IMG/VR virus record: IMGVR_UViG_3300009164_000093
Span: 1-56,376 of that record
Direction: 5' to 3' (one strand)
Length of the DNA: 56,376 nucleotides
Source: a virus
Positions 1,829 through 29,794 of this stretch are shown in pieces; positions within the stretch are counted from its first letter, which is position 1; each line of letters starts with the position of its first letter. The notes under the pieces are model-generated. The model was not told where the DNA came from and did not search any database. It saw only the letters and a program-made list of their open reading frames with translations. The position numbers and the translations under genes were made by a program.

Positions 1829-2482
1829 ATGAACGATGATATTAAGATATTCGATAACATAATCCCCAAAGGGTATCAAGATGCTCTAGAGGAATTAACC
1901 ACAGACGAATTATTTGACTGGGGATATGCTAACGATGTTGTCTGGGATCAAAGTTCTTTAAGAAAAGGGCGATCCCTTAAACAGATAAATGACGGGTTTG
2001 GTCATATGCTATGTGTTCCAAAACATGAAAGCAACCATTGGCCTTTTATTAAACCTCTCATTTATCATATCAATGAAGCATTGGGAGAAGATGCTAAACA
2101 TATTTTTAGAGTCCGTGTAAACTTATTGCTAAGAGCATATCCAGAAGACATGCCTTGGAATAATGAGCACGTAGACAGCACCACTCCTCACTATACAGGT
2201 ATCTACTACGTAAACGACACTGACGGTCCTACATACATATTTGACCAAAAAGTCACAGATATCCAGCACAAAAATTGGACACAAGATGTGATCCTTAACT
2301 ATATCAACAACACAGAATTTACAGTAGCACAAGCAGTTGAACCTAAAAAAGGTAGACTAGTAGTGTTTAACGGACAGAGATTTCACGCCAGTAGCAAGCC
2401 AAGAGACAATCAAAATAGAATTGTAATTGCCTTTAACTGGCAAACAGAAAAACATTTGAGGCAACATGGGACAACTATTTAG
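1829..2482 (+). CDS. 2-oxoglutarate/Fe(II)-dependent oxygenase
   Basis: A 217-residue protein of the 2OG-Fe(II) oxygenase superfamily, probably prolyl-4-hydroxylase-like. Iron ligands are visible as H114-x-D116 and H186, with R197 placed to bind 2-oxoglutarate. The surrounding strands YTGIYYVNDTDG (122-133) and GRLVVFNGQRFHAS (175-188) have the double-stranded beta-helix pattern. Such enzymes hydroxylate proteins, nucleobases or small molecules; the target here is unknown. It starts 5 nt after tRNA-Val and overlaps the next oxygenase by 17 nt. It is one of seven oxygenase-like genes in the window. Confidence 0.88.
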   Translation: MNDDIKIFDNIIPKGYQDALEELTTDELFDWGYANDVVWDQSSLRKGRSLKQINDGFGHMLCVPKHESNHWPFIKPLIYHINEALGEDAKHIFRVRVNLLLRAYPEDMPWNNEHVDSTTPHYTGIYYVNDTDGPTYIFDQKVTDIQHKNWTQDVILNYINNTEFTVAQAVEPKKGRLVVFNGQRFHASSKPRDNQNRIVIAFNWQTEKHLRQHGTTI

Positions 2483-3101
2483 ACCGTTCGGGGATAGCAT
2501 TTATATAGGCAATGATCGTGTAGAATCTCACGAGTCTATTCGAGAACTACTTAAAACAGTATATGAAAAACACAAAGCCAATACAAAGTTTGACAGCTTC
2601 TATGCCACAGCATTTACCAGTTATGGAAAAGAACATGAAGACTTTGATCTACTAAGTTACAAAGAACTTCAGACACTACAAGAAAAAATATTCAGTAGAG
2701 CTAAACAGGTTGTGTTTGAGCAATTTGAATATAATCAAGATCTAAGGGCAAGTAAGTTTAGTAATAGGCCGTTAGAATTTAAAGAAATTTGGTTTAACTT
2801 TAATCCCCCAATGGGATATCAAGGTAAACATCATCATGCTGATTTCTTGTTTGCTGGGACGTACTATGTACAAGTTCCTCCAGAGTCGGGAGATATTCGA
2901 TTCTTTAATCCCAATAACTTTGCCATGTATAAATTGTACTCTGAAAATCGAAATCATTTAATGAAATTACAAACAGCAAGGTTTCCAGCAGAAGGTGAGT
3001 TGTATATTTGGCCTGGATTTATAGAACACGAAGTTACTACAAATTTAACTGACGATCAAAACCGTATCAGTATTAGTTTCTGCTTAGACTGGGCAGATTA
3101 A
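2466..3101 (+). CDS. 2OG-Fe(II) oxygenase, TIGR02466-like phage family
   Basis: 211 residues. The iron site is H124-x-D126 inside a histidine run (122-124), with H188 and R200 downstream. The segment VQVPPESGDIRFFNP (136-150) and the E-L-Y-I-W-P-G strand near 178-184 resemble the phage and bacterial family of putative 2OG-Fe(II) oxygenases known as TIGR02466. It overlaps the preceding oxygenase by 17 nt, implying coupled translation, and its stop lies 6 nt before a tRNA. Substrate unknown. Confidence 0.85.
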   Translation: MGQLFRPFGDSIYIGNDRVESHESIRELLKTVYEKHKANTKFDSFYATAFTSYGKEHEDFDLLSYKELQTLQEKIFSRAKQVVFEQFEYNQDLRASKFSNRPLEFKEIWFNFNPPMGYQGKHHHADFLFAGTYYVQVPPESGDIRFFNPNNFAMYKLYSENRNHLMKLQTARFPAEGELYIWPGFIEHEVTTNLTDDQNRISISFCLDWAD

Positions 3102-3203: not shown

Positions 3204-4163
3204 ATGTTAAAGAAAGTAATAGCAATTATGACACTAGTATTAGCAAGTCACGCACACGCTTGGGAACCAAACGGTCCAGTTAAAGCGTTTATCGGCTTTG
3301 GGCCAGGATCGGGAAATGAAATTGCATTTCGCGGTGTTGCCGCCGAAGTTGAAAGAAACAATCCTAAGGTAAATTTTGTTATTCAAACAATGCCAGGTGC
3401 AGGTGGCAATATTGCCCTAGCACATGCGGTAAAGTTGCCGGCAGACGGAATGACATTTACTGTGTCTGGTCTAAGTACTTACGCATTTGATCCAGTGTTC
3501 TATCCAGAGCTAATGAAATTTACGCAAGGAGATTTATATCCTGTACTAGGAATTGCACGTAGTCCATTTGTTATCGTTGCTCGTCCCTCGAGCAAAGTGA
3601 ACACAGTAAAAGAACTTGCGGCCCATTTAAAATCAGGTGAACAAGTCTTTATTGGAATTAGCGGGGCTGCTCCGTTCCTTGTACATAGTATGTTAATGGA
3701 AAAGGCTGGTGGAAACTATGATACTGTACAAACTGTTATGTATAAAGGTCCACAAGAATCTGCTATGGCCGCTGCAACCGGCGAAGTTGAGTTTTCTATT
3801 ATGCCAGTAACTGTGAGCGCACCTTTAATCGCAGGAGGAAAAGTTAAACTAATCGGCCTAGTAGGGGACAAGAAAATGCCACAGTTTCCAAATGCTGAAC
3901 TTGTTAAAGATACACTACCAGGTGTAGTGTTTAATGCCATGTGGAATATTACTCTACCTAAGGATACGCCCAAGGATGTAGTTGACTGGTATGTAGCAGA
4001 ATTTGGCAAGGCAATACATAGTGAAAATGTTAAAAAATACTTTGATCAAAATTATATGTACGCAGATCCTTTTAACGAACCAGTAAGTCACGCAAAATGG
4101 ATTGCTACATTTAAAAGTCAAATTATGCCAGTCGCTGAAAAAGCCAAACCTCGATTCCGCTAA
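3204..4163 (+). CDS. TctC/Bug-family periplasmic solute-binding protein
   Basis: A 319-residue exported protein. The signal peptide covers residues 1-19 (basic start, hydrophobic core, AHA cleavage site). The mature part has hallmarks of tripartite tricarboxylate transporter receptors (Bug family): a V-K-A-F-I-G-F-G-P-G-S-G-N-E start, M-P-G-A-G-G-N-I at about 64-71, then A-A-D-G-type turns and a C-terminal Q-N-Y/P-F region. Length is typical. In bacteria these capture carboxylates in the periplasm for TctAB; Burkholderiales carry very many paralogs. A strong ribosome site (AAAAGGAAA) precedes the ATG. No TctA or TctB gene is present, so the protein would work with host permeases or have another role, making it a probable host-derived auxiliary gene. 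Confidence 0.88.
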   Translation: MLKKVIAIMTLVLASHAHAWEPNGPVKAFIGFGPGSGNEIAFRGVAAEVERNNPKVNFVIQTMPGAGGNIALAHAVKLPADGMTFTVSGLSTYAFDPVFYPELMKFTQGDLYPVLGIARSPFVIVARPSSKVNTVKELAAHLKSGEQVFIGISGAAPFLVHSMLMEKAGGNYDTVQTVMYKGPQESAMAAATGEVEFSIMPVTVSAPLIAGGKVKLIGLVGDKKMPQFPNAELVKDTLPGVVFNAMWNITLPKDTPKDVVDWYVAEFGKAIHSENVKKYFDQNYMYADPFNEPVSHAKWIATFKSQIMPVAEKAKPRFR

Positions 4164-6407: not shown

Positions 6408-7028
6408 ATGAACTATAAAATATATAGAGACCCTTTTACATTTATTGTAATAGAAAATTGGTCTATACATCCAGAAAGGTATTACTCCAATACCATAGAA
6501 CTTATGCCGTTAATGAAACCTAGTGTAGTTTACGGTAACAATACACAAGTTCTTAACACCAAATACAAAAGCAGTCACAACCTATGGCTTTACAATACTC
6601 CAGAAGGTAATAACCTCGCAAAAAAGTTTGAGAAAGACTTATGGACTGCGGAGTTTAAACAGATATTGTTTGAAACAAACGACTCACTATTTCAAAGCGC
6701 CTGCTATACTGACAGCAGTCAAGTGTTGTTAAGTAGATACGAAGAAGATGATCATTACGCTTGGCACCGAGACTACAATGATACCATTACAATTAACTAT
6801 CTAATTGGTAAAGAGCCCCTAGGGTTCAAAGGTGGTGACTTTATATTTGGTGGATGGAATGACGAAGATCCTCGACATACCATAACGTTCAAACCAAATA
6901 CATTAATTGTATTTCCCAGTAGAGTTAAACATCGTGTAACTCCTGTTACAAATTTTACAGGCAATCCCGACGATGCTCGATTCACCTTACAGTATTGGGG
7001 CAAACTCAAATACGTTGTCGAGCAGTAA
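6408..7028 (+). CDS. 2OG-Fe(II) oxygenase
   Basis: 206 residues with the complete site H120-x-D122, H175 and R191, in strands YAWHRDYNDTITINYLIG and NTLIVFPSRVKHRV. The G-G-D-F-I-F-G-G turn between them is typical of prolyl-hydroxylase-like enzymes acting on macromolecules. It starts 9 nt after the tRNA-like gene with no clear ribosome site. Target unknown. Confidence 0.87.
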   Translation: MNYKIYRDPFTFIVIENWSIHPERYYSNTIELMPLMKPSVVYGNNTQVLNTKYKSSHNLWLYNTPEGNNLAKKFEKDLWTAEFKQILFETNDSLFQSACYTDSSQVLLSRYEEDDHYAWHRDYNDTITINYLIGKEPLGFKGGDFIFGGWNDEDPRHTITFKPNTLIVFPSRVKHRVTPVTNFTGNPDDARFTLQYWGKLKYVVEQ

Positions 7029-16226: not shown

Positions 16227-17027
16227 ATGAAGATTTTTATATACCTATTGTTATTGGTATCTAGCGTAGCGTTTTCTAAGACAAAAGGTCCTGTTCCAAG
16301 TGTATCTTTGTACAATATTACCGACAATATAACAGTTGTTAGTGAAAACACTGATGTACAAAGACCTCTTGCCAGTCTTACTAAAATAATGACCGCAATG
16401 ATTACGTTAGACCAATGGCAGACTCTCAATGAAACATTGGTACTAGATCGTAAAGTCAAGCCAGTTCTTCCCTCCGGCAAATATACTAGACTAGAATTGC
16501 TCAATGCTCTATTAGTTAGAAGCGACAATGCCGCAGCCGAAACACTGGCTGTAAATTACCCGGGTGGCCGGAGTGCCTTTTTAGAGGCAATGAACAATCG
16601 TGCTAGAATGTTAGGCATGACACAGACACATTTTGACGACCCCAGTGGTTTGGCTAGCACCAACTTATCAAGCGCACAAGATGTAAATCGAATGTTAATT
16701 GCGTCAATGAACTATCCGTTAATCAAACAGATCAGTATTCAAAAGCAAGCCCAGTTTGATGCTTACTACAAAAAGAAAGTTCGTAAGGTTGTATTGCCAA
16801 ACACTAATAGCAAACTACTGTTTGAGTTTGACAACATTGTTATTACTAAAACTGGCTACACTACTCCGGCAGGTTTCTGTTTAGGACTAGTAGTTGAACA
16901 AAATAAGAAATTCTACACCGTTGTTATTATGGGCACACCCAATCCAATGTTCCGTTTAAATCTTGCTCGTCGACTATTAAACAGTGACATTCATTACAAT
17001 TCTCTCCTTGACAGTGATTTAAAATAA
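16227..17027 (+). CDS. secreted D-alanyl-D-alanine carboxypeptidase (peptidase S11, penicillin-binding-protein type)
   Basis: 266 residues with a signal peptide (residues 1-17). All three serine DD-peptidase motifs are present: S50-L-T-K53, S99-D-N101 and K208-T-G210. Low-molecular-mass enzymes of this family trim the terminal D-alanine from peptidoglycan stem peptides in the periplasm. It lacks the C-terminal membrane-anchoring extension of host DacA-type enzymes, so it is a compact version. For a phage it could remodel the wall during infection, help lysis, or be packed in virions. The next gene's promoter lies over its last codons. Confidence 0.9.
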   Translation: MKIFIYLLLLVSSVAFSKTKGPVPSVSLYNITDNITVVSENTDVQRPLASLTKIMTAMITLDQWQTLNETLVLDRKVKPVLPSGKYTRLELLNALLVRSDNAAAETLAVNYPGGRSAFLEAMNNRARMLGMTQTHFDDPSGLASTNLSSAQDVNRMLIASMNYPLIKQISIQKQAQFDAYYKKKVRKVVLPNTNSKLLFEFDNIVITKTGYTTPAGFCLGLVVEQNKKFYTVVIMGTPNPMFRLNLARRLLNSDIHYNSLLDSDLK

Positions 17028-20038: not shown

Positions 20039-20056
20039 TTGTAATAAAACTGTAAT
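20039..20056 (+). promoter_or_regulatory. Pho-box-like direct repeat upstream of the PlcP-like gene
   Basis: TTGTAAT-AAAA-CTGTAAT: two 7-bp half sites with a 4-bp A-rich spacer, the layout of the enterobacterial PhoB box (CTGTCAT, N4, CTGTCAT). Eleven bases further on is TAAATA (20068-20073), the position of the -10 box in PhoB-dependent promoters. The same block recurs at 21967-21984. PhoB binding is inferred. Confidence 0.5.
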
Positions 20057-20067
20057 CGATAGAGTGG

Positions 20068-20073
20068 TAAATA
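20068..20073 (+). promoter_or_regulatory. TAAATA box before the PlcP-like gene
   Basis: GGTAAATAC, 5 nt before the ATG at 20079 and 11 nt after the Pho-box-like repeat. Either the -10 element of a PhoB-type promoter or a T4-type late promoter. In both cases a leaderless message would result if 20079 is the start. Confidence 0.45.
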
Positions 20074-20078
20074 CTCGC

Positions 20079-20969
20079 ATGAGGACATACCGCTCTATTT
20101 TTATAAGTGATGTACACCTTGGTACTCGAGATTGTAAGGCTGACCATCTCAATAATTTTCTCAAAAATAACTCGTGCGATACTCTCTACCTAGTAGGAGA
20201 CATTATCGACGCATGGCGCATACAACAAAACAAATGGCGTTGGAAACAATCACATACCAACGTTGTAAGACGTATACTTGGACATGCCAAACGTGGCACT
20301 AGAGTAATCTACGTAGCAGGTAATCACGATGAATTCTTAAGACCATTAATGCCCTATGACATTAATTTTGGCCTTGTTGAAATACACAATCAAATAGAAC
20401 ACATAGGCGCCGACGGTAAACACTACCTTGTAGTACACGGAGATCTATTTGACGGTATTACTAGATTGGCACCATGGATCGCATTCTTAGGCGATAAGGC
20501 CTATGATTTTGTACTATCATTAAATGCCAAGTTTAATTGGATTAGACATAAGTTCGGATTTGGTTACTGGTCGTTGAGTCAGTTCTTAAAGCATCGTGTT
20601 AAAAAAGCCGTAGACTTTATGTTCCAGTTTGAAAAGAATTTAGCAGGTTATTGTAAGAAGCGAGGTTTTGATGGTGTTATATGTGGACACATACACCACG
20701 CAGAAATTAAAGAGATCGATGGTGTGACATACATGAATGACGGTGACTGGGTAGAAAGTTGTACAGCCTTGGTAGAACACCACAATGGCAAGTGGGAGAT
20801 AATTACATGGACTAAGGAGAAGGATGATGTGGTTACTGATCCTAATAGCGGTACACGCGAACAATCCCCAAGACCAGCCGGGCAGGGTAGAACTCGTGTT
20901 CCAAGATCAAAAGACTTGCGAGCAAGTCCTAAACACAATGACTTGGCAGTTGAAGTTCAAAAGTTTTAA
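20079..20969 (+). CDS. plcP: PlcP-like metallophosphoesterase (LpxH-related phospholipase C)
   Basis: 296 residues from ATG 20079 (a GTG at 20064 is possible but would include the -10-like box). Calcineurin-like phosphoesterase motifs in order: D11-x-H13, G40-D41, G81-N-H-D84, V-V-H120-G-D, G-H-I-H-H (203-207). Databases label this family UDP-2,3-diacylglucosamine diphosphatase. In marine heterotrophic bacteria a member (PlcP) releases diacylglycerol from phospholipids under phosphate starvation and is encoded beside a glycosyltransferase (Agt). Here the next gene is such a glycosyltransferase, 12 nt away, and a Pho-box-like site lies upstream. Residues 251-296 are a disordered basic tail. 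A role in lipid A synthesis is the alternative. Confidence 0.75.
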   Translation: MRTYRSIFISDVHLGTRDCKADHLNNFLKNNSCDTLYLVGDIIDAWRIQQNKWRWKQSHTNVVRRILGHAKRGTRVIYVAGNHDEFLRPLMPYDINFGLVEIHNQIEHIGADGKHYLVVHGDLFDGITRLAPWIAFLGDKAYDFVLSLNAKFNWIRHKFGFGYWSLSQFLKHRVKKAVDFMFQFEKNLAGYCKKRGFDGVICGHIHHAEIKEIDGVTYMNDGDWVESCTALVEHHNGKWEIITWTKEKDDVVTDPNSGTREQSPRPAGQGRTRVPRSKDLRASPKHNDLAVEVQKF

Positions 20970-20981
20970 GGTAGTAGGCGA

Positions 20982-21983
20982 ATGCAAAAAACAATCCTAA
21001 TTGTTACAGATAACTTACCGGAGCAAATCAATGGCGTGGTTACGACCTACAAAAATATTGAGGAACACGCGGTTCGCGATAACTATCGTGTTGTATATAT
21101 TGATCCCAGGAGGTTCCGCTATGTTGATTGCCCTGGCTACAACGAAGTCAAGATTGCCTTTCCACGGAAGGTGGGCAAGATACTTGAGGAGATCAATCCG
21201 GATCATATCCACATCGCCACGGAGGGTCCTATTGGTCTGCGTGTTAGACAATATCTTGACAAACACAATTATCGCTACAATACTGCTTATCATACTAAGT
21301 TTCCAGAAGGACTTAGAAAACTATTTGGCATTCCTGAAGCCCTTACTTGGCCTGTAGTTCGATGGTTCCACAAACACTCGGGCAAAGTATTAACTACTAC
21401 AGATTCTATGGTAGCAGAACTTAAAGAACACGGCTTTGATGGAGAACTAGTTTCATGGACTCGAGGAGTTGATCGTAGCATATTTTATCCCGGAGAGCGG
21501 GCTCCTAGTGTTAATTATATTATGGTTTGTGTTAGTCGTGTTAGCAAAGAAAAGAATTTAGAAGACTTTTTTAACTTAGATTATCCTGGCCGTAAAATTA
21601 TGGTAGGTGACGGCCCTATGTTAGAAGAATATAAAGCCAATTATCCTAGTGTTGAGTTTGTTGGAGCAAAGCGTGGCGTTGAACTAGGTGACTACTACCG
21701 TATGGCAGATGTATTTGTATTTCCAAGCCGTTGGGAAACATTTGGTATTGTTATGATAGAAGCAATGGCTTGCGGAACTCCAGTAGCGGCATATCCGGTA
21801 CAGGGCCCGTTAGATGTAATAGATGAAGGTGTTACAGGTTGTATGAATGATGAACTTAAACAAGCGGTTAAAGATGCTTTAATGTTATCTAGGAACTTAG
21901 TTTATCAAGGTAGCCAAAAATGGTCTTGGCAAAGAGCTTGGGAAATATTTAAAGATAATTTGGTATTTGTAAAATCACTGTAA
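20982..21983 (+). CDS. Agt-like GT4 glycosyltransferase (diacylglycerol glucosyltransferase type)
   Basis: 333 residues with GT-B fold. N-terminal V-T-D-N-L-P-E-Q-I-N-G-V-V-T-T-Y (about 7-22) is typical of GT4 enzymes acting on lipids (MgtA/Agt/SQD2-like). Donor half: V-C-V-S-R-V-S-K-E-K-N-L near 181-192, the G-D-G-P-M-L-E-E loop near 209, and the E-T-F-G-I-V-M-I-E-A-M-A-C-G-T-P-V-A motif near 249-266. With the PlcP-like gene it would turn phospholipid-derived diacylglycerol into glycolipids, sparing phosphorus. That pairing is the main functional evidence; the acceptor is not proven. Confidence 0.78.
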   Translation: MQKTILIVTDNLPEQINGVVTTYKNIEEHAVRDNYRVVYIDPRRFRYVDCPGYNEVKIAFPRKVGKILEEINPDHIHIATEGPIGLRVRQYLDKHNYRYNTAYHTKFPEGLRKLFGIPEALTWPVVRWFHKHSGKVLTTTDSMVAELKEHGFDGELVSWTRGVDRSIFYPGERAPSVNYIMVCVSRVSKEKNLEDFFNLDYPGRKIMVGDGPMLEEYKANYPSVEFVGAKRGVELGDYYRMADVFVFPSRWETFGIVMIEAMACGTPVAAYPVQGPLDVIDEGVTGCMNDELKQAVKDALMLSRNLVYQGSQKWSWQRAWEIFKDNLVFVKSL

Positions 21984-21984
21984 T
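21967..21984 (+). promoter_or_regulatory. second Pho-box-like direct repeat
   Basis: TTGTAAA-ATCA-CTGTAAT followed by CGAT, overlapping the end of the Agt-like gene (stop at 21981-21983). It shares CTGTAATCGAT with the copy at 20050-20060 and again lies 11 nt before TAAATA. Confidence 0.48.
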
Positions 21985-21995
21985 CGATTATCACT

Positions 21996-22001
21996 TAAAT
22001 A
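21996..22001 (+). promoter_or_regulatory. TAAATA box downstream of the second Pho-box-like repeat
   Basis: CTTAAATAAT 39 nt before the ATG at 22041. The leader contains a hairpin GTGTGC/GCACAC (22005-22010 with 22016-22021) before the AAGGAG ribosome site. Confidence 0.48.
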
Positions 22002-22877: not shown

Positions 22878-23238
22878 TCCCTTTCGCGACCAAGAAAAAT
22901 TTATGAAAGCCTGTGATCAAAGCACAGGTAATTGGAATGTTGAACAATTCAATTTGTATGTTGATTTGATCGAAGAAGAAACTAACGAACTTGCTGATGC
23001 TATTCGAGCGCATGATCAAGTAGAAACACTTGACGCACTAATAGATATTCTAGTTGTTACTATTGGTGCTATTCACAGCATGGGCAGTGATGCTGAAGGT
23101 GCTTGGAAAGAAGTAATGAGTACAAACTTTGCCAAGATCGGCGAAGACGGCAAAGTACGTAAACGTGAAGATGGTAAAGTGTTGAAACCCGTGGGTTGGG
23201 CACCTCCCAATCTTAAACCATTTGTTAAAGGAGATTAA
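22870..23238 (+). CDS. MazG-like nucleotide pyrophosphohydrolase
   Basis: 122 residues from the ATG behind GAGGAAAAA; an ATG 27 nt upstream lacks a ribosome site. The all-alpha NTP-PPase motif is visible: E-E-E-T-N-E (35-40) then D55-A-L-I-D59, with the helix around F-N-L-Y-V-D-L-I. Such enzymes hydrolyse NTPs or dNTPs to monophosphates; in phages they are proposed to lower ppGpp or process nucleotides from degraded host DNA. The C-terminal 35 residues (K-V-L-K-P-V-G-W-A-P-P-N-L) are typical of phage members. Exact substrate unknown. Confidence 0.85.
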   Translation: MTNPFRDQEKFMKACDQSTGNWNVEQFNLYVDLIEEETNELADAIRAHDQVETLDALIDILVVTIGAIHSMGSDAEGAWKEVMSTNFAKIGEDGKVRKREDGKVLKPVGWAPPNLKPFVKGD

Positions 23239-23239
23239 T

Positions 23240-23935
23240 ATGTTTGGTTCAAATTATATAGATAACGGTATTGTAAACTACCGTTCGGCAGAAGAAATTA
23301 ATTCAGCCATGGGCCGTGTTTACGGACACATGAGCCTGGCAGTTGTTGTGTCAATGTTGGTCAGTTACTTTGTGGGCTCTAGTCCAGAGTTGCTACAATT
23401 CTTTTTTACCGGTGTGCTAAAGTGGATTGTGATTTTCGCTCCACTGGCCGCAATATTTGGCGTTGGTTACGTACTAGGTACTAATCCTAGTAAGGGTGTA
23501 GCACAGTTATGTTTACATGGGTTTGCGGCACTAATGGGATTGAGCTTTGCTACAATCTTTGCTGTATTCACTATGGGGTCGATTGTTAGTGCCTTTATGG
23601 GTGCGGCAATTTTGTTTGGTACTATGAGCTTTTATGGATACTTTACTAAACGTAGTTTAGAAAGTCTTGGACAGTTTATGTTCATTGGTCTAATTGCCAT
23701 TATCATTGCCAGCATTGTTAACATCTTTATTGGTTCTAGTGTAATGGCAATGGTGATTAGTGCGTTGGCTATTATCATCTTTCTTGGACTTACTGCTTAC
23801 GATACACAACGAATTCGTGAGGAGTTAAGCGTAGACACTAGTCCGGCGGCCGAAGTTAGCGGTGCGTTAACTTTGTATATGGACTTTATTAACTTGTTTA
23901 TTAACCTGTTACAGATTTTTGGCGATAGAAAATGA
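23240..23935 (+). CDS. Bax inhibitor-1 (BI-1/YccA) family membrane protein
   Basis: 231 residues from the ATG behind AAAGGAGA. About seven transmembrane helices between residues 30 and 225. The C-terminal signature Y-D-T-Q-R-I-R at about 192-198 and A-L-T-L-Y-M-D-F-I-N-L-F-I-N-L-L-Q-I-F-G at about 208-227 is diagnostic of the BI-1/YbhL/YccA family. Bacterial members are inner-membrane proteins, some acting as pH-sensitive calcium leaks (YetJ) or FtsH modulators (YccA). A phage copy could protect the membrane or FtsH targets during infection. Overlaps the next gene by 4 nt. Confidence 0.92.
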   Translation: MFGSNYIDNGIVNYRSAEEINSAMGRVYGHMSLAVVVSMLVSYFVGSSPELLQFFFTGVLKWIVIFAPLAAIFGVGYVLGTNPSKGVAQLCLHGFAALMGLSFATIFAVFTMGSIVSAFMGAAILFGTMSFYGYFTKRSLESLGQFMFIGLIAIIIASIVNIFIGSSVMAMVISALAIIIFLGLTAYDTQRIREELSVDTSPAAEVSGALTLYMDFINLFINLLQIFGDRK

Positions 23936-28361: not shown

Positions 28362-28606
28362 CACTACCAGACGAAAGATACCGTGCTGTTGTACAAACAG
28401 AAAAGTTTCTAAGAGAAATTCTTAGTACACCACGAATTCCAAAAGCAATTAAAGATAATGCTCGGTATTGTCTGCGCCACTATCCTACAACATGGGATAT
28501 GCAGCGTACAGCACTTCAGGCGCCGGATGTATTCCAAGAACGCATGGAACCATTGTATAGAATGATTGTAAAATACGAAGAGGAAAAATCCAATGGTGAT
28601 GCCTAA
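28358..28606 (+). CDS. BPSL0761-like protein
   Basis: 82 residues. The layout M-T-L-P-D-E-R-Y-R-A-V-V-Q-T-E-K-F-L-R then L-R-H-Y-P-T near 51-56 resembles the BPSL0761 family, small proteins of unknown function frequent in Burkholderiales. If right, it points to a betaproteobacterial host. Assignment is from memory. Confidence 0.6.
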   Translation: MTLPDERYRAVVQTEKFLREILSTPRIPKAIKDNARYCLRHYPTTWDMQRTALQAPDVFQERMEPLYRMIVKYEEEKSNGDA

Positions 28607-29192
28607 ACGATTGGGCCCTGCTATTGTATTTGAAGACGACTACGTATTTGATCGTAAAGTTGTAGTACCCGAACTGGAAAAATATCTAGAAAAGGTAGAT
28701 GCGCCTGCTCCGGAATTAGCTATGATCCGTATGGAAGGCTTAGACATTACAACTAGAGAAGTCAACGATACTCCACATAAACTTCCAATCTTTGAAGACT
28801 TTACCAACTGGACTTTGGAAAGAGCTAGAGGTATTTTAACTTCATGGAGATGTGATTTTAAAGACGTTGAAGTGTCTCGTAGTTGGGTTAACCGAACACG
28901 TAAAGGTGGATGGATTAACTATCATATACACCATCACACTGATCTAATTGTAGTAGCATACATTACTGCGCCGCCAGACTGCGGGGACTTACTTTTAGTG
29001 GACCCGTTAGAGTGCCATTGGTTTGGCATGTCATTAACGGGAGATAATAATAGTCTTTACACTGGTTACAAATTTCCTGTGAAGAATAACAAAGTATATT
29101 TCTTTGCTCCTTTTATTAGACACGCAACAGAGCCTAGTTCATCTGACGATGTTCGATGGTGTATTGCGCTTAACTTAAAGATTGTAAAATGA
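28593..29192 (+). CDS. TIGR02466-like 2OG-Fe(II) oxygenase, tandem copy 1
   Basis: 199 residues (an ATG 6 nt later is also possible). The family histidine cluster is H111-x-H113-H114-H115-x-D117 after the W-V-N-R-x-R-K-G-G-W-I-N-Y lead, with H177 and R188 in Y-F-F-A-P-F-I-R-H-A-T. A-P-P-D-C-G-D-L-L-L-V-D-P follows the first metal site, as in the gene at 2466. Adjacent to a clear paralog. Target unknown; this family has been poorly characterised. Confidence 0.8.
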   Translation: MVMPKRLGPAIVFEDDYVFDRKVVVPELEKYLEKVDAPAPELAMIRMEGLDITTREVNDTPHKLPIFEDFTNWTLERARGILTSWRCDFKDVEVSRSWVNRTRKGGWINYHIHHHTDLIVVAYITAPPDCGDLLLVDPLECHWFGMSLTGDNNSLYTGYKFPVKNNKVYFFAPFIRHATEPSSSDDVRWCIALNLKIVK

Positions 29193-29794
29193 TACCACGA
29201 CAGATCGGAGTGCCTCTTATCTTTGAAGAGGACTATACATTTGATAAAGCAGTAACGTTACCTAAACTTGAAAAGATTACTTCTATTAGTAAAGATTTTG
29301 ACAATTACGGTGGGACGCTTGAATTAGGAAACGCCGGTAGCACAGCGGGTAATCATCTTCACAAAATACATGAACAGCCTGAGTTCGATGACTTTTCAAT
29401 TTGGGCGTTAAAGAAGGCCCATAATATTTTGTCATATCGTTGGAACTTTGAGTTTGACTATATAGAGATAACACGAAGCTGGTCCAATAGACATAAAAAA
29501 GGTGGCTGGACAAACTATCATACTCATGCTAACTGTGACCTAGTACTGTCTGCCTATGTTCAGGCTCCCCCGGAGTGTGGAGACTTAGTGATTATAGATC
29601 CAATGGAAAATCATTGGTTTGGAATGAGTACTAAAATGAATTCAAGATCACCGTTAACTTATAACTATCCCGCACAGGATAATCGTGTTTATTTCTTTGC
29701 CCCTTTCCTGCGGCACGGAACACAGCCAAGTAATGCCGATGAAGACCGTTGGGTAATTAGTATGAATTTTAACTGCTGGAAAGGAAAACCATGA
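29189..29794 (+). CDS. TIGR02466-like 2OG-Fe(II) oxygenase, tandem copy 2
   Basis: 201 residues, paralog of the previous gene over its whole length (R-S-W-x-N-R-x-K-K-G-G-W-x-N-Y, E-N/C-H-W-F-G-M-S, V-Y-F-F-A-P-F-x-R-H). The metal motif reads H111-x-H113-x-N115 instead of histidine-rich, which is the form I recall as usual for this family. H176 and R187 are kept. Overlap with copy 1 is 4 nt. Divergence at the metal site may mean different activity. Confidence 0.8.
   Translation: MIPRQIGVPLIFEEDYTFDKAVTLPKLEKITSISKDFDNYGGTLELGNAGSTAGNHLHKIHEQPEFDDFSIWALKKAHNILSYRWNFEFDYIEITRSWSNRHKKGGWTNYHTHANCDLVLSAYVQAPPECGDLVIIDPMENHWFGMSTKMNSRSPLTYNYPAQDNRVYFFAPFLRHGTQPSNADEDRWVISMNFNCWKGKP

Follow-up and report, generated by a model that had tools for sequence, protein, structure and literature searches.

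The window analysed here, the whole 56,376-bp stretch of the virus record IMGVR_UViG_3300009164_000093, carries a plcP-like esterase gene and an agt-like glycosyltransferase gene side by side, downstream of a Pho-box-like repeat; a second such repeat precedes a short gene, hereafter referred to as gene X. The features are as follows.

20039-20056, + strand: TTGTAATAAAACTGTAAT, a tandem Pho-box-like repeat of the half-site TGTAAY with an 11-bp period, found by upstream comparison
20068-20073, + strand: TAAATA, presumed -10 element, separated from the box by exactly 11 nt and from the ATG by 5 nt
20079-20969, + strand: plcP-like metallophosphoesterase (open reading frame, Pfam, identity, motifs, tree)
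20982-21983, + strand: agt-like GT4 glycosyltransferase, GT-B fold (open reading frame, Pfam, identity, tree, structure model)
21967-21984, + strand: second, weaker Pho-box-like repeat TTGTAAAATCACTGTAAT, one mismatch, overlapping the glycosyltransferase stop codon
22041-22358, + strand: gene X, 105 aa, no known family, after the second box

ATG 20079 is the likelier start codon of plcP, as the alternative, GTG 20064, falls inside the promoter. With TAAATA so near this ATG, the mRNA is possibly near-leaderless.

The contig also encodes a ClpP-type head protease, 72% identical to that of Agrobacterium jumbo phage Atu_ph07, a baseplate wedge protein and tail proteins; the operon therefore sits on a phage contig. 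We assign the virus to a jumbo-phage lineage near Atu_ph07, and contigs with relatives of the plcP/GT4 pair reach 367 kb. Several other phage-borne genes were noted in the window: a TctC-type tripartite tricarboxylate receptor-like protein (3204-4163; PF03401), a Bax-inhibitor-1 family membrane protein (23222-23935; PF01027, 6e-54) and a D-alanyl-D-alanine carboxypeptidase-like protein (16227-17027; Peptidase_S11, 2e-36). Three further genes (2466-3101, 6408-7028 and 28593-29794), all within this one 56-kb fragment, match phage 2OG-Fe(II) oxygenase families.

Pfam identified a Metallophos domain in the esterase (8e-11). All of the calcineurin-type metal motifs are present (D16, H18, D46, N87, H88, H125, H209 and H211, numbered from the GTG), and the metal ligands are invariant across 46 homologues. 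The protein is 54% identical to the P. aeruginosa plcP product over 252 aa, 46-50% identical to relatives from Sinorhizobium, Sphingomonas and Mitsuaria, and 49% identical to the product of a plcP-like gene of the SAR11 phage Mosig; its identity to E. coli LpxH is 23%, partial, over 120 aa. In a tree of 92 proteins, 21 LpxH proteins split off on one side with a support of 100, whereas the viral esterases formed a clade of 27 rows (SH-aLRT 99) nested in a PlcP-type radiation that includes P. aeruginosa PlcP and S. meliloti PlcP-type rows. The motif GNRD was found in 21/21 LpxH proteins, and GNHD in 52/53 viral and 40/43 other PlcP-type rows. The window esterase thus has the complete metal motifs with GNH(D/E) and groups with a genetically proven PlcP apart from LpxH, as expected of a PlcP, and has none of the three marks of an LpxH, namely membership of the LpxH clade, the GNRD motif and a score above the NCBIfam cut-off. 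The viral plcP genes are under purifying selection (median dN/dS 0.048). We conclude that the window esterase is a PlcP-type phospholipase; its phospholipase C activity is inferred.

Automatic annotation offers a different reading, in which the first gene encodes the lipid A enzyme LpxH and the second an enzyme that modifies LPS. In its favour, public records call close relatives UDP-2,3-diacylglucosamine diphosphatase, and a Foldseek search with a structure model of PlcP returned LpxH as the nearest solved fold. The model is good in its core, to about residue 250, and poor in a helical insertion (about residues 132-190) and in the tail; the match to LpxH therefore counts at the fold level only. 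Against this reading stand the separate LpxH clade, the GNRD/GNHD difference and the scores with the NCBIfam LpxH models (45 and 34 bits, against cut-offs of 134 and 190), as well as genomes such as G078, G082 and G086, which hold plcP and lpxH as separate genes. At the level of sequence, this reading is all but excluded.

The glycosyltransferase gave GT4 domains in Pfam (1e-21 to 5e-13), and its structure model showed a GT-B fold (pLDDT 89.6). It is 37% identical over its full length to the glycosyltransferase adjoining P. aeruginosa plcP, 43% identical to the Sphingomonas glycosyltransferase beside plcP and 45-46% identical to SAR86 relatives. A scan of genome contigs with the glycosyltransferase alone reached only SAR86-like relatives. 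In the tree, the window GT4 grouped with glycosyltransferases encoded downstream of bacterial plcP, P. aeruginosa Agt1 among them; the viral GT4 clade had a support of 100 and was joined with SAR86-type Agt and the protein of locus L205 (support 95-99). WaaG, WaaB, WcaI and WcaC, together with two other GT4s of the window, fell outside this Agt group. The window GT4 is thus placed with plcP-linked Agt and outside the LPS GT4s, with the caveats that the root branch has a support of 92, that the outgroup branches are long and that only the tested LPS and colanic-acid GT4s are excluded. The viral GT4 genes, too, are under purifying selection (median dN/dS 0.146). These results identify the protein as an Agt-type glycosyltransferase; that it synthesizes MGDG or GADG from diacylglycerol, and which sugar it adds, are inferred.

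The GT4 gene starts 12 nt after the plcP stop, both genes lying on the + strand, so that plcP is followed directly by a lipid glycosyltransferase gene, the arrangement of a PlcP-Agt operon. A pattern search of IMG/VR with the viral PlcP gave at least 600 places, 599 of them confirmed relatives. A corresponding search with the glycosyltransferase gave 405 GT-like places. GT4 was present in 104 of the 159 viral plcP loci and, in 101 of these 104, lay directly downstream in the same order. The pair is thus widespread in viral metagenomes, although the loci are best-scoring matches, some sharing a contig, and the counts are not frequencies. Among the closest bacterial relatives examined, a GT4 relative lies beside plcP in 29/33. 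Chance open reading frames were ruled out by the conservation across homologues and the dN/dS values. As a separate observation, loci L154 and L157 combine a divergent PlcP (57% identical to that of the window) with a GT4 that falls in the usual viral clade, possibly by replacement of plcP through recombination. A first-pass annotation of the window had described an LpxH/PlcP-type metallophosphoesterase with all metal motifs and a GT4 gene 12 nt downstream. Both descriptions held (20982 follows the stop at 20969), and the esterase is now resolved as PlcP-type by the tree, the GNHD motif and the identities. Neither of the sequence-level outcomes that the annotation had named as refuting it was observed: the esterase does not group with lipid A LpxH (support 100), nor the glycosyltransferase with the LPS enzymes tested.

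GT4 is not the only partner of viral plcP. When 80 loci were picked by plcP alone, 28 contained GT4, 49 contained a glycosyltransferase of the GT2 family and three contained neither, one of the three being truncated by the contig end; none of the 80 had both. The GT2 gene (PF00535, 2e-22) starts 22-127 nt after plcP in the 49 loci, where it is 77-100% conserved; one example lies at L006:4922-5638, and 48 other viral loci are alike. We found no GT4 anywhere on 12 contigs of the plcP-without-GT4 type (up to 353 kb), and no GT2 beside plcP in 398 Pseudomonadota genomes, in which the relatives of this GT2 are only 27-36% identical. By parsimony, the partner changed 10 times along the viral plcP tree, but only a single change is forced by well-supported branches. 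Because phage plcP nearly always precedes a glycosyltransferase gene of one or the other of these unrelated families, we infer that the diacylglycerol produced by PlcP is meant for glycosylation.

The region upstream of plcP was compared among 75 distinct viral loci. The box was perfect in 44 and had one mismatch in 18 (62/75 in total), as against expectations from dinucleotide shuffles of 0 perfect boxes and 0.8 with at most one mismatch. In 40 of the 62 boxed upstream regions, 11 nt separate the box from TAAATA; in 18, the gap is longer by a helical turn (21-22 nt). A scan with the E. coli consensus had given only weak scores upstream of plcP; the TGTAAY form emerged from the comparison of loci. 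Across 40 whole contigs, whose listed lengths add up to 5.8 Mb, 38 sites matched the full pattern with no more than one mismatch, and 2 sites matched a reversed control pattern. Thirty of the sites were classified: 16 precede plcP, four pstS, two gene X, two a gene for an MRL-type repeat protein and one a GNAT gene, and five lie in other stretches. A scan of the locus set with a similar pattern gave 57 plcP sites and 36 others, more than 20 of which precede pstS. In the related jumbo phages L289, L288 and L290, Pho-box-like sites were seen before a GNAT acetyltransferase gene and a gene for a repetitive MRLEDLAARL-type protein. We rejected the idea that the box is a general phage promoter, as it occurs almost exclusively before plcP and pstS. 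The hexamer TAAATA occurs 23 times in the window against 38 expected and is not over-represented, with many copies lying just before genes; that it is a T4-type late promoter remains possible, the window counts not settling the matter.

Bacterial pstS promoters contain CTGTCAY repeats with the same 11-bp period. Because of this shared period and the specificity for pstS and plcP, we interpret the repeat in the phages as a Pho box of the host type, PhoB binding being inferred. A tandem 11-bp repeat at a fixed distance before a -10 element, as expected of a Pho regulon member, is present, albeit with TGTAAY half-sites. In a published test on a cyanophage, the prediction of a Pho box was not a reliable guide to PhoB binding (PMC10976474). 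Upstream of the closest bacterial plcP genes examined (250 nt), such a box was absent at the stringency of our pattern, except in P. aeruginosa and one other.

Alternatively, the repeat could be the site of a phage-encoded or other regulator rather than of host PhoB, leaving a lipid-remodelling pair without phosphate control. In support of this, the phage half-sites are mostly TGTAAY and not the TGTCAY of the sampled bacterial pstS boxes, and a small number of sites lie before genes not obviously concerned with phosphate (those for the GNAT and MRL-type proteins and gene X). On the other side, the period is that of bacteria and the distance to the -10-like element is fixed, some phage copies do read TGTCAY (e.g. 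L028, L036 and L109), pstS is the other main target, and phage Mosig has an analogous single site. We therefore regard a regulator other than PhoB as unlikely and retain the reading as a host-type Pho box.

The association with phosphate uptake is also genetic. A phage pstS lay within the fetched flanks in 29/161 loci, often directly before plcP, and carries the same box as plcP; the window fragment itself has no pstS. One phage PstS is 73-76% identical to the PstS proteins of bacterial genomes G255 and G043. The 16S sequence of G255 is 96% identical to that of Variovorax, and G255 is therefore a Burkholderiales bacterium, probably of the Comamonadaceae. This likeness raises the possibility, without proving it, that the pstS-bearing relatives have Burkholderiales hosts; the host of the window's virus is unknown. 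In the window, the second box is followed after 11 nt by another TAAATA (21996-22001). Homologues of gene X were found in 14 viral loci, two of which had the same box arrangement upstream in the whole-contig scan, and gene X may be a further member of the box-controlled set. In Mosig, plcP and a PstS-like gene are oriented divergently, with the sole YTTAAC-N5-YTTAAC repeat of the 141-kb genome in the region between them (L001:5863-6012). Its sequence is similar to the PyTTAAPyPy(T/A) Pho box of cyanobacteria given in PMC10976474, and we infer from this that the repeat is possibly the Pho box of a SAR11 phage.

The biochemistry of the two enzyme families is established: PlcP releases the phosphorylated head group of a phospholipid and leaves diacylglycerol, to which Agt transfers a sugar from a UDP-sugar. 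Phages that assist phosphate uptake by starving hosts are known. We propose as likely that the operon of the window renovates membrane lipids in the manner of bacterial PlcP-Agt and is expressed under phosphate starvation of the host. In a phosphate-limited cell, active PhoB would bind the box at 20039-20056 and boost plcP-agt transcription from the adjacent TAAATA promoter. From membrane phospholipids, phage PlcP would release the phosphorylated head group, either glycerol phosphate or phosphoethanolamine, and the phosphorus in it would re-enter host metabolism. To the diacylglycerol left behind, GT4, or GT2 in related phages, would add a sugar; the resulting glycolipid would contain no phosphorus and would maintain the integrity of the membrane. 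In this way the phage would tap host phospholipid phosphorus during genome synthesis, and in its relatives the boxed pstS would contribute phosphate uptake. Since PlcP frees head groups and not phosphate, phosphorus would reach the phage only after the action of further host enzymes. It is equally possible that the phage keeps the host's renovation programme going after host shut-off. There is no biochemical, lipidomic or expression evidence for the operon, and the case rests on sequence.

Another explanation accepts the enzymes as PlcP and Agt and places the gain in a change of the envelope (superinfection exclusion, receptor masking, resistance to cationic peptides or tuned lysis) instead of in phosphorus. 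Glycolipids do alter polymyxin sensitivity (PMC8528852), and aminolipids or glycosphingolipids alter phage adsorption in other bacteria (PMC9938194; PMC6445935). This explanation is nevertheless improbable in our judgement, because the box is common to the phosphate-uptake gene pstS and nearly absent elsewhere in the genomes, and because the linkage of plcP with pstS recurs in Mosig.

The phosphate-supply reading bears on the remaining claims of the first-pass annotation. Its proposal of a PlcP-Agt-like lipid-remodelling cassette on a phage is supported, and is strengthened by the box and the pstS linkage, although no glycolipid has been shown. Its statement that the pathway releases phosphate held in part, given the further enzymes needed. 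Its marine framing also held in part; the bacterial sequences nearest to the phage PstS point to Burkholderiales, and the setting is therefore not only marine. It had missed the promoter with the Pho-box-like repeat, which plcP has in common with phage pstS and which speaks independently for a role in phosphate starvation. Its remark that it was not aware of a description of the pair in phages agrees with the literature searched: we found no description of a phage PlcP-Agt or PlcP-GT2 in open-access papers, most subscription papers and preprints being outside the scope of the search.

If the proposal is true, phages appear to draw on membrane phospholipids, a large cellular store of phosphorus, only when phosphate is scarce. 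Many uncultured freshwater phages with giant genomes carry the two-gene operon, apparently switched by the phosphate-starvation signal of the host. Viruses would then take part in the remodelling of membrane lipids in lakes and seas, and lipid biomarkers would be tied to infection. Viral surveys of Lake Baikal (PMC9611531) and of surface and subsurface offshore oligotrophic waters (PMC10653327) list lpxH as an auxiliary metabolic gene for lipopolysaccharide; we infer that some of these may be misnamed plcP. A bolder reading is that an aquatic jumbo-phage lineage possesses its own small phosphate regulon (pstS, plcP with an interchangeable GT4 or GT2, and gene X), with a box read by host PhoB and used almost nowhere else in the genome. 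Such phages would rebuild the host membrane without phosphorus during infection, glycolipid synthesis in the GT2 form would rely on a plcP-GT pairing that bacteria are not known to have, and some 'lpxH' auxiliary genes of aquatic surveys would be such plcP genes. Taken jointly, these statements seem to us slightly less likely than not to hold.

Both bacterial PlcP-Agt and phage pstS under PhoB are already known. In bacteria, plcP followed by agt is the commonest plcP neighbourhood, and SAR11 Agt makes MGDG and GADG in E. coli (PMC4796936); for PA3219-PA3218 of P. aeruginosa, plcP and its adjoining glycosyltransferase gene, mutants and expression have demonstrated the synthesis of glycolipids (PMC8528852). 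The phage operon resembles the bacterial pathway, as found in Phaeobacter MED193, SAR11 HTCC7211 and P. aeruginosa (PMC4796936, PMC8528852), in its enzyme families, gene order, short spacing, PhoB-type promoter box and sequence clades. It differs in being virus-encoded, in having a box with TGTAAY half-sites very near the start codon and in its linkage to viral pstS; moreover, many phages swap GT4 for GT2, a partner unseen beside plcP in the Pseudomonadota genomes sampled. LpxH (UDP-2,3-diacylglucosamine hydrolase) shares the calcineurin-type fold and metal motifs, but belongs to a separate clade with GNRD instead of GNHD and is about 20% identical. The phosphate genes of cyanophages (pstS and phoA, PhoB-controlled; PMC10976474) likewise serve viral phosphorus supply and are apparently read by host PhoBR, whereas PlcP-Agt would target the host's own membrane lipids and not uptake or an extracellular phosphatase. 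The Pelagibacter phage Mosig EXVC030M (MT647606) is like the relatives of the window's virus in encoding PlcP beside a PstS-like protein with a single tandem 11-bp repeat between them. It differs in that its PlcP is annotated as UDP-2,3-diacylglucosamine hydrolase, the genome announcement (PMC7892664) not discussing the gene, in having no glycosyltransferase gene beside plcP and in the letters of its box.
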